A DNA stretch of 45,085 nt, taken from positions 1 through 45,085 of the forward strand of contig JAFYME010000002.1 of the NCBI GenBank assembly GCA_017556765.1, given 5' to 3'. This document shows, in pieces, positions 42,473-45,035 of the stretch. How positions within the stretch are numbered: position 1 is the first letter of the stretch; each line of letters starts with the position of its first letter. The position numbers and the translations under genes were made by a program. A model generated the notes under the pieces. That model was not told the origin of the DNA and ran no database searches. It saw only the letters and a program-made list of their open reading frames with translations. This DNA is from Bacteroidales bacterium (lineage in GTDB: Bacteria > Bacteroidota > Bacteroidia > Bacteroidales > UBA932).

Positions 42473-43387
42473 CTACATTGCAAGGCAGCGCCGGATTTGT
42501 TTCTCTCCGATGTGCATATTCCGATATAGTTGCTCTGCAATCTGCTGCTTTTCCTGTCTTGTGAGCAGGTATATAGAGGCCTTACCGTATTTGGGCAGGA
42601 TGGTCCTGTCTATTTCCATACAGATGTCGATGTCGGATGGCCTTTTGTAATCTGATTTTCCGTTTTCATATATGAGCATTCTTTCCGTGTTGTCTGCCTT
42701 GACCCCAGATTCGATTGCCGATAGGTTTATCGGAGGTTGATTGTTATTGTCTTTCTGTTGTTCCGTCTCCCATTCTTCCGAAGATTTTCTCGTCATGTAC
42801 CAGTTGTATGCTCTTGGTGTGACGAACATGTTTTCCATCTGAGGGATATCAAGTACTGTCTCGCGGAGAAATACACCGCTCTCGCTCATCTTATATGATG
42901 AGGGGTATTCCGCTGTCTTGCCGATATGGTTTCTGTGATGTCTTGGGTCAAGAAACTTCTCACATGGGCTCTTGCCCATCTCCTTCATGAATATTGCATT
43001 TGCGCTGCAGTATGGGTATGCGTAAGGAATAGGGGCGATGCCGTGATGGAGTGCGTTGCGCAGTGTGTAGCTTGCGGCTGCGAGCATGTGGTTATAGCCT
43101 ACTACTTCCATGGAGAAATGATGCTTTTCTCCAAGTTTGCCGGATCTGAAGTACTTCCTGTTGAAATACATACTGTACTGCATGCGGAAGCTGAACATAA
43201 GATCCTTAGGAACTTCAGTCTGTGCCATCTGGTGAAAGTGGGTGGACATGAATGATTCCACCAGACCGGTAGAGCCTGTATTGTACAAGGCTACTGCGAG
43301 GCAATTGAATCCTCTGTTGTAATCTTCCTGGTCCCTGAACAGGACCTCATCTCCTGCCGACAGGCATAAATGGTAGGTTCTTTTCAT
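42473..43387 (-). CDS. Y1 (HUH) transposase, REP-associated tyrosine transposase-like
   Basis: A 304-residue single-strand DNA transposase of the IS200/RAYT superfamily. The HUH metal pair is H50 and H52 in MSTHFHQMAQ. The presumed catalytic tyrosine is Y107 in SYTLRNALHHG, the equivalent of the Y(I/T)xRNP..xG motif. The C-terminal 180 residues (from about 125) are not part of the minimal Y1 domain and include a Gln/Asn-rich run (KDNNNQPP) and a terminal basic helix (RQEKQQIAEQLYRNMHIGEKQ) that could bind hairpins. The frame is intact. It is flanked by hairpin doublets that are its likely substrate. Family membership is firm; RAYT against true insertion sequence is open. Confidence 0.82.
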   Translation of the reverse strand: MKRTYHLCLSAGDEVLFRDQEDYNRGFNCLAVALYNTGSTGLVESFMSTHFHQMAQTEVPKDLMFSFRMQYSMYFNRKYFRSGKLGEKHHFSMEVVGYNHMLAAASYTLRNALHHGIAPIPYAYPYCSANAIFMKEMGKSPCEKFLDPRHHRNHIGKTAEYPSSYKMSESGVFLRETVLDIPQMENMFVTPRAYNWYMTRKSSEEWETEQQKDNNNQPPINLSAIESGVKADNTERMLIYENGKSDYKRPSDIDICMEIDRTILPKYGKASIYLLTRQEKQQIAEQLYRNMHIGEKQIRRCLAM

Positions 43388-43727: not shown

Positions 43728-45035
43728 TTACTCCCACTCGATTGTTGCGTTTGGCTTTGGTGAGAGGTCGTAGCAGACGCGGTTTACAGTAGGGATCTCT
43801 GCAAGGATACGGTCTGTGATCTTCTGGAGGATAGGCCACTCGATCTGCTCGATTGTAGCTGTCATCGCGTCGACTGTGTTGACGGCGCGGATGATTACCG
43901 GCCAGTCGTATGAACGTGCGTTGTTGCGTACGCCTACAGACTTGAAGTCAGGAACCACTGTGAAGTACTGCCATACCTTCTTGTCGAGGCCGGCTGCTGC
44001 GAACTCCTCACGGAGGATTGCGTCAGACTCGCGGAGAGCCTCAAGACGGTCGCGTGTGATCGCTCCGAGGCAACGTACTCCGAGACCTAGTCCTGGGAAC
44101 GGCTGACGGTATACCATCTCGTATGGGAGACCGAGCTCAACTCCGCAAGCGCGAACCTCGTCCTTGAAGAGCTGCTTGAGAGGCTCAACGAGCTCGAACT
44201 GGAGGTCCTCAGGGAGACCGCCTACGTTGTGGTGTGACTTAACGACCTTGGCAGTCTTTGTACCGCTCTCTGCGATATCAGGATAGATTGTTCCCTGGCC
44301 GAGGAAGTCGATTCCGTCAAGCTTGCGAGCCTCTTCCTCGAATACGCGGATGAACTCGCCGCCGATGATCTTTCTCTTCTGCTCAGGATCTGCAACTCCC
44401 TCGAGAAGGCCGAGGAAACGGTCAGTTGCATCTACATATATAAGGTTTGCGCAAAGCTGGTTGCGGAATACCTCCACAACATTCTCAGACTCGCCTTTAC
44501 GCATGAGACCGTGGTTTACGTGAACGCAGTAAAGCTTGTCACCGATGGCCTTGAGAAGGAGGGCTGCAAGAACAGAACTGTCAACTCCGCCCGAGAGCGC
44601 GAGGAGAACCTTCTTGTCGCCAACCTGCTGGCGGATGAGCTCAACCTGGTCTGCAACGAAGTTCTTCATGTTCCAGTTGGCCTCTGCCTTACATGCGTCA
44701 AACACGAAGTCCTTTACTGCATTCTTGATGAACTCCTCATCGTTTCCGAACTGAGCAAGCTTGATTTCGCAGAGCGCCTTGTCGTGACCTGCTGCCATAA
44801 CAGGGAAACCTGCCTCGTAGATTTCAGGGAGAACATCGATCGCAACTCCGTCGATTACGTTGTTAGGACCACCGTTGATGATGATACCCTTTACATTAGG
44901 AAGAGCCTTGAGCTCCTCGGCTGTGATATCGTGCGGGTGGATCTCGCTGTATACACCCAATGCTCGGATTGCCCTGGCAACCACTGTGTTTTCGTGGCTT
45001 CCGAGGTCAAGAATTACGATCATGTCCTGTTTCAT
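43728..45035 (-). CDS. guaA: GMP synthase with degenerate, shortened glutaminase domain
   Basis: Makes GMP from XMP with ATP and ammonia. Normal GuaA has about 510-525 residues; this one has 435. The synthetase part is complete: P-loop SGGVDSS (148-154), KIIGGEFIRVF, GQGTIYPDIAES, KSHHNVGGLP and the C-terminal dimer domain ending in KPNATIEWE. The glutamine amidotransferase part is not. Its first 80 residues are normal in pattern (ILDLGSHENTVVARAIRALG, KGIIINGGPNNV), but where other enzymes have PVLGICYGMQL this protein has PVMAAGHDKAL, so the nucleophile Cys is Gly83, and about 87 residues including the His/Glu of the triad are gone. It probably needs free ammonia or a separate glutaminase. 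The frame has no break, so this is not a fresh frameshift. Start ATG 45035. Confidence 0.9.
   Translation of the reverse strand: MKQDMIVILDLGSHENTVVARAIRALGVYSEIHPHDITAEELKALPNVKGIIINGGPNNVIDGVAIDVLPEIYEAGFPVMAAGHDKALCEIKLAQFGNDEEFIKNAVKDFVFDACKAEANWNMKNFVADQVELIRQQVGDKKVLLALSGGVDSSVLAALLLKAIGDKLYCVHVNHGLMRKGESENVVEVFRNQLCANLIYVDATDRFLGLLEGVADPEQKRKIIGGEFIRVFEEEARKLDGIDFLGQGTIYPDIAESGTKTAKVVKSHHNVGGLPEDLQFELVEPLKQLFKDEVRACGVELGLPYEMVYRQPFPGLGLGVRCLGAITRDRLEALRESDAILREEFAAAGLDKKVWQYFTVVPDFKSVGVRNNARSYDWPVIIRAVNTVDAMTATIEQIEWPILQKITDRILAEIPTVNRVCYDLSPKPNATIEWE

Follow-up and report, generated by a model that had tools for sequence, protein, structure and literature searches.

Four kinds of described enzyme are closest to the one discussed here. 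First, canonical GMP synthases (GuaA, EC 6.3.5.2) combine an N-terminal glutaminase part with synthetase and dimerisation domains in a single chain. Second, the archaeal GMP synthetases divide the work between two subunits (GATase and ATPPase), as set out in an excerpt of PMC10526850. The same excerpt describes that the synthetase module of the GMP synthetases studied can use external ammonia in vitro, independently of the glutaminase. Third, according to part of the text of PMC4655335, CPS1 keeps an inactive, ancestral glutaminase-like domain, with Ser in place of the catalytic Cys, and draws on environmental ammonia. Fourth, the physiological donor of single-domain NAD synthetase is ammonia, and the single-domain form is most likely ancestral (PMC3376133, partial text). 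Here, we describe a Bacteroidales GMP synthetase gene in which half of the glutaminase has been deleted and the remainder disarmed.

The gene lies at the end of the window, i.e., the whole 45,085-nt stretch of DNA that was analysed, and encodes 435 residues from an ATG to a stop codon (Table 1). Its product resembles GuaA in domain order, with the synthetase and dimerisation domains following a homologous N-terminal glutaminase part; unlike GuaA, it is without the catalytic Cys, His and Glu, ~84 glutaminase residues are deleted, and the truncated form constitutes a separate, deep clade. It shares with the archaeal two-subunit enzyme a synthetase that is not fused to a working glutaminase, but here a remnant is still fused, and no separate GuaA-type glutaminase was found in the 27 genomes that carry the truncated form as their sole GMP synthetase. 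As in CPS1, an inactive glutaminase-like domain that has lost its catalytic Cys is retained; CPS1, however, keeps the domain, whereas here half of it has gone, in a bacterial enzyme with GMP as its product. By analogy, CPS1 would be the best precedent for an ammonia-only enzyme. Single-domain NAD synthetase likewise offers ammonia as the donor for an ATP-dependent amidotransferase relative; in the present case, ammonia use would be secondary, acquired by loss, and with a remnant kept. Where the truncated form stands in tandem with a canonical GuaA, the arrangement is comparable to the pairing of the ammonia-dependent AsnA with the glutamine-dependent AsnB. We know of no natural GMP synthetase described so far as depending on ammonia.

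Table 1. Positions of features in the window, with altered CarA loci from other genomes in the last row
Feature	Position	Strand	Evidence
Truncated-glutaminase GMP synthetase gene, 435 aa	43728..45035	-	ORF; NF000848 and TIGR00884 above curated cut-offs; same-length relatives
N-terminal portion of the class I glutaminase domain, kept as a pseudo-glutaminase remnant (residues 1-82)	44790..45035	-	PF00117 1-76/190; phmmer; dN/dS
Gly83 codon at the position of the GICYG catalytic Cys	44787..44789	-	Alignment; relatives
Linker, residues 84-124, replacing the deleted half-domain	44664..44786	-	Alignments
ATP pyrophosphatase (XMP/ATP) domain: LSGGVDSS P-loop, YPD..ES, KSHHN lid	44010..44663	-	TIGR00884; alignment
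C-terminal dimerisation domain, PF00958 GMP_synt_C	43734..44009	-	E 7.8e-38; 92/92 positions
Leu316 codon	44088..44090	-	Pro in 70/70 other distinct 435-aa relatives
115-bp overlap with end of contig C39, contig junction	44971..45085	.	TypA-like gene upstream
Altered CarA of sole type-A congeners, triad Cys (now Gly or Glu) and His lost	L192-L197, L199-L204, L310-L312, L314-L316, L187

Alignment with Escherichia coli GuaA (1gpm) yields two blocks, with window residues 5–88 matching 9–91 and residues 107–435 matching 194–525; the step from 88 to 107 set against that from 91 to 194 gives a net deletion of ~84 residues. The segment that bears the triad His and Glu is missing from the window protein, and at the nucleophile position PVMAAGHD replaces the canonical motif (AAGHD vs GICYG), such that Gly83 stands in place of the Cys. 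In the N-terminal quarter, the match to the Pfam GATase profile PF00117 covers just positions 1–76 of 190, and the score for TIGR00888 is 52 bits against a cut-off of 172. The synthetase half, by contrast, exceeds both TIGR00884 (447 bits; cut-off 339) and NF000848 (537 bits; cut-off 400), and the SGGVDS P-loop, YPD..ES and KSHHN lid do not vary among 28/28 aligned sequences, window included. The remnant is recognisable as such: residues 1–98, used as a phmmer query, match the N-termini of GMP synthases in the PDB (best E 3.6e-12), and CKAEANWNM, within residues 84–124, aligns with the canonical interdomain linker. On sequence criteria, then, the window protein is a GMP synthetase and is not a glutaminase, so that “glutamine-hydrolyzing GMP synthase” is very probably the wrong label for it.

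A sequence-only reading of the window had reported the change of the GICYG Cys to Gly83 and the removal of the HPE His and Glu, both of which the alignment confirms. The ~87-residue shortening it proposed reflects a real and large deletion, with the size being ~84 since 87 includes an N-terminal offset. It had also called the synthetase and dimerisation domains fully normal; this is true of the profiles, the motifs and the complete PF00958 match, with the exception of residue 316, which is Leu (PFPGLGL) where 70/70 other distinct 435-aa relatives have Pro. Leu316 is either a local variant or an assembly error. Just 50 nt separate the gene start from the end of the contig, in a genome of 1.55 Mb that is 58% complete. 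However, contig C39 from this genome shares 115 bp with that end and extends into an upstream gene that we take to be TypA-like, a neighbour also present in relatives (L004–L007); the window gene is therefore complete despite the contig end. On its other side, guaA is adjoined by a 304-aa ORF (window 42473–43387, minus strand) that resembles an IS200-like/REP-associated transposase.

Gly83, His84 and Cys89 are present in 72/72 distinct relatives of 434–435 aa, and the same motif occurs in 12 further proteins of 436 aa. Selection was estimated from 71 genes, with 785 pairs kept after those with overall dS undefined, <0.1 or >1.5 were dropped, and regional medians taken from pairs with dS >0.2 in the region. 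Median dN/dS is 0.028 for residues 1–98 and 0.021 for residues 1–82, compared with 0.043 for the synthetase (residues 125–435) and 0.075 for the faster residues 99–124, all of these being rough figures because the pairs are non-independent and synonymous sites are near saturation (pS 0.52–0.67). A canonical GuaA yardstick amounts to 4 usable pairs only. The comparison of remnant and synthetase that the sequence-only reading had proposed (0.028 vs 0.043) shows that the remnant is constrained at least as strongly as the working domain, i.e., it is under strong purifying selection. Like CPS1, the protein retains a glutaminase-like domain without a catalytic Cys, here under selection. Since half of a glutaminase is kept under such selection, the protein offers a clean test of the non-catalytic role of that domain. 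It is scarcely credible that the gene is decaying or is an assembly artefact of one metagenome bin. The 58% completeness, the position at a contig end and the unique Leu316 are what such an origin might produce, but the motif is common to 72 distinct relatives, dN/dS is ~0.03, and independent assemblies and named strains carry the truncated form. With the relatives, the dN/dS values and the C39 overlap taken together, we rejected both a pseudogene and a contig-end artefact.

The truncated form is widespread. Using the N-terminal 138 residues as query (E <1e-60) against 400 genomes of the window's genus, we found it in 39, the window's own included; a further 274 genomes gave weak matches, with open frames >500 aa in most of the rows listed, and 87 gave none. 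An order-level search identified carriers in 10/393 genomes from five genera, and the form is found in four other Bacteroidales genera besides the window's. These distributions, together with the low dN/dS of the remnant, agree with the earlier suggestion that this is an evolved type of enzyme and not a decaying gene. A scan of GTDB contigs with an N-terminal alignment returned 538 stretches; a relative at E ≤1e-3 is encoded in 504 of them, a number that counts relatives by that threshold and not the exact truncated form. The best 80 of these 504 are 86–97% identical, and ruminant hindgut is named in the titles of 61 of the 80. Among named strains, Parabacteroides distasonis has an 87% identical protein (WP_022191716.1) encoded directly after guaA (WP_005854975.1), and Bacteroides finegoldii has a homologue that is also 87% identical (WP_055279793.1); both are annotated “glutamine-hydrolyzing GMP synthase”. 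Subdoligranulum variabile has a 429-aa form (75% identical). The named records are labelled as plasmids but contain chromosomal-type genes, and so may be assembly pieces. The truncated form crosses phyla, which the sequence-only reading had not foreseen. In the open-licence PMC literature, we found nothing on an ammonia-only or glutaminase-less GMP synthetase or on this Bacteroidales form. For Bacteroides thetaiotaomicron, fitness effects are reported for BT_4265, listed as “GMP synthase (guaA)” (PMC4380924, partial text). BT_4265 could be either the truncated or the canonical form. UniProt may list a second GuaA for this species.

Two midpoint-rooted trees based on the synthetase domain (107 and 77 rows; the bootstrap of the first had not settled) place the 435-aa truncated form, here type A, in one clade separate from canonical Bacteroidales GuaA. 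Type A, the 429-aa form and type B, i.e., proteins of 325–328 aa from the window's genus that are without any glutaminase and sometimes stand in tandem behind canonical GuaA, unite in a clade (100/100) whose branch is ~1 change per column long. This clade groups with six full-length GuaA (98/91, 99/95) from contigs that carry integrase-like genes and whose hosts look like Bacillota; a seventh such GuaA (L296) is placed opposite, together with canonical Bacteroidales GuaA and the outgroups. Read most simply, these trees would mean that the truncation is old, that the truncated gene was transferred between phyla, and that type B has lost what was left of the remnant. A different history applies to type D, proteins of 319 aa that mostly start with MYNG- or MHDG- (L024, L025, L031, L089, L090, L092, L266, L270) and are adjacent to IMPDH in G023 and G230. 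Type D forms one clade at 100/100 within the canonical Bacteroidales GuaA group, and is by this placement a second, independent and complete loss of the GuaA glutaminase. Origin by simple deletion from the local canonical Bacteroidales GuaA thus fits type D; for type A, the trees do not support it. A phage origin was also considered and rejected: 17 phage records match, all at <60% identity, and the contigs inspected resemble host guaA beside integrase-like genes. At L292 and L294–L302, the 3′ end of guaA is followed by genes that read as integrase-like, which makes guaA look like an integration site.

In most of the carriers examined, the truncated form would be the only GMP synthetase. The sequence-only reading had set against itself the possibility of a second, full-length GuaA, and none was found in the window's own genome (58% complete). 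More broadly, a TIGR00884 search of 32 of the 48 carriers known at that point detected no other GuaA above the cut-off in 27. These 27 sole carriers comprise 23 genomes of the window's genus, the window's own among them, three of g30 and one of g187; nine are ≥90% complete with ≤5% contamination. The remaining 5/32 carriers (g107 and g90) have a canonical-type GuaA directly upstream on the same strand (in G588 it is cut, apparently by the contig end), and two further tandem loci were found (L144 and L148). In these genomes, as in P. distasonis, the truncated form is thus a second enzyme beside canonical GuaA.

The presence of canonical-type GuaA in those five carriers, and the long branch of ~1 change per column leading to the clade, would be compatible with a different substrate or a regulatory role for the truncated form, with GMP coming from guanine salvage. 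We consider a new role of this kind unlikely, since the ATP and XMP motifs are invariant, the protein scores as an equivalog, and it is the only GuaA in 27/32 carriers. Furthermore, IMPDH, the source of XMP, was found in 25/25 genomes searched, own included.

If the protein makes GMP, its ammonia could come from glutamine hydrolysed elsewhere. One possibility is that a separate, unrecognised glutaminase channels ammonia to the synthetase, with the remnant as a docking surface, following the logic of the archaeal two-subunit enzymes (described in part of PMC10526850). The strong conservation of the remnant would suit such a role. However, PF00117 matches at E ≤0.001 in 27/27 sole carriers include no GuaA-type glutaminase; they consist of the remnant itself, CarA, PyrG, a peptidase C26-dipeptidase-like fusion, and HisH beside hisA (for one HisH, a profile score was obtained as well). 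A separate GuaA-type glutaminase was likewise not found in the window's own genome (58% complete). In addition, a partner specific to GuaA would leave the disarmed CarA of congeners (see below) unexplained. We therefore regard a docked partner as improbable. The sequence-only reading had offered free ammonia and a stand-alone glutaminase side by side; with 0/27 sole carriers having a GuaA-type candidate for the latter, the former is favoured.

Since the triad is gone and no partner was found, the donor is probably free NH3, and we put at roughly three in four the probability that the truncated form makes GMP with ammonia only and retains the glutaminase part as a pseudo-enzyme. The synthetase half would adenylate XMP using ATP, and free NH3 would attack adenyl-XMP directly, with glutamine not being hydrolysed and ammonia not being delivered by a partner. 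The retained first half of the glutaminase would be a pseudo-enzyme domain that most likely stabilises the synthetase and shapes or caps the entry of NH3; stability, a lid and NH3 entry are all roles it may have. Two observations from the available part of PMC10526850 count against free ammonia as the donor in the cell: (i) every GMP synthetase studied prefers glutamine as its physiological substrate; and (ii) the Km for NH4Cl reaches up to 174 mM, for human GMPS. The gut would supply enough ammonia, and the carriers probably build GMP from it. If so, this would be a widespread ammonia-dependent GMP synthetase, often the only one in its host, and the first known to us. Annotations as “glutamine-hydrolyzing” would need to be checked against the triad.

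The window's genus appears to have moved away from glutamine hydrolysis more widely. CarA is the glutaminase subunit of carbamoyl-phosphate synthase. It was not found in the window's own genome (58% complete), so what follows rests on congeners. All 16 sole-carrier congeners with a CarA found have no intact glutaminase triad, a result the sequence-only reading had not anticipated. Fourteen of those read are sole carriers by TIGR00884 (G280, G146, G233, G192, G416, G361, G380, G310, G210, G365, G265, G258, G415 and G397), and the sole status of the other two (G021 and G025) comes from a separate search. In 15/16, GICLG has become G-x-G-x-G (Cys to Gly) and HPE has become NPE, APE, TPE or DPQ, with Glu kept in 14; in the remaining genome, G397, Cys is replaced by Glu and His by Gln (QPE). 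Two CarA occur in G415, one with Cys to Gly and one that has the Cys but QPD. The altered proteins are otherwise recognisable as CarA: 4/4 scanned (L192, L204, L188 and L187) still pass the CarA profile cut-offs, and a frame that reads as CarB-like follows in the six loci with enough flank (L310–L312, L314–L316). Median dN/dS for their two halves is 0.077 and 0.066 (12 genes; 65 and 58 of 66 pairs usable), i.e., both halves are under purifying selection. As a bacterial analogue of CPS1, the disarmed CarA of congeners (Gly for Cys, His replaced) is closer than the truncated GuaA.

Genomes with canonical-type GuaA served as controls. The CarA first fetched was intact in 13/13 (eight congeners and five tandem genomes), and with G035 added, at least one intact CarA is present in 14/14 canonical-GuaA genomes read. 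However, G001, G003 and G035 have, beside a dihydroorotase-like (pyrC) gene, a second CarA with a broken triad in addition to the intact one (Cys to Gly in G003, L320, and G035, L321; His to Tyr in G001, L319). Disarmed CarA is thus not confined to sole carriers. Genomes with other GuaA types vary. The type-D genome G018, which lacks a GuaA glutaminase altogether, has a dihydroorotase-linked CarA (L313) in which Gly replaces Cys and Asn replaces His; this CarA may be the older pyrC-linked copy rather than a fresh loss. Type-D G034 keeps an intact CarA (L072), and in G002, with only a type-B-like GuaA fragment, the CarA Cys is present and the end of CarA is missing. Disarmed CarA beside intact CarA may parallel truncated GuaA beside canonical GuaA; the sole carriers would be those left with disarmed copies only.

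For CTP synthase (PyrG), the domain PF06418 was not found in any of the 16 type-A genomes of the genus that were searched, own included, six of which are ≥90% complete. It was also missing from 8/10 genomes with only type B or type D, the other two being G023, with a match, and G004, with a fragment. Across all 32 genomes searched, a match was present in 8. In G711, a sole carrier from another family, the PyrG Cys has become Ser (GISLG; L198/L237) with HPE kept. The shift from glutamine to ammonia is not uniform: the PyrG triad is intact in the sole carriers G540, G712 and G775, as is CarA in G034. Nor is there a general loss of glutamine use, a proposal that we rejected since the PurF, PurL and HisH nucleophile motifs are kept in the sequences read. 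The N-terminal Cys of PurF is retained in 7/7 read (two more carriers have a match besides), and the PurL motifs are intact in the window's own genome.

Taken across GuaA, CarA and PyrG, we lean slightly towards the view that some hindgut Bacteroidales have dismantled glutamine hydrolysis in much of nucleotide synthesis, using free ammonia instead and keeping the disarmed domains as structural or regulatory pseudo-enzymes. The dismantling would extend to GuaA (one lineage having deleted half of the glutaminase and another the whole), to CarA (Cys to Gly with His replaced) and to PyrG (not found in carriers of the genus, and with Ser for Cys in another lineage). GuaA and CarA may have taken a shared path, in which intact and disarmed copies coexisted and the intact copy was then lost; the GuaA pair in Parabacteroides and the CarA pairs in G001, G003 and G035 would represent the intermediate stage. 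With the CarA result added, it seems that ammonia-only enzymes can be favoured in ammonia-rich guts, a parallel to CPS1 in animal liver. If true, a large bacterial clade would have had its nitrogen wiring reshaped by ambient ammonia, a change concealed behind the label “glutamine-hydrolyzing”. As a separate observation on the source of XMP, IMPDH profile matches span ~1000 bases in G006, G009, G011, G128 and G229 and ~1400 elsewhere, which suggests that the CBS insert has been lost from the IMPDHs with short matches.
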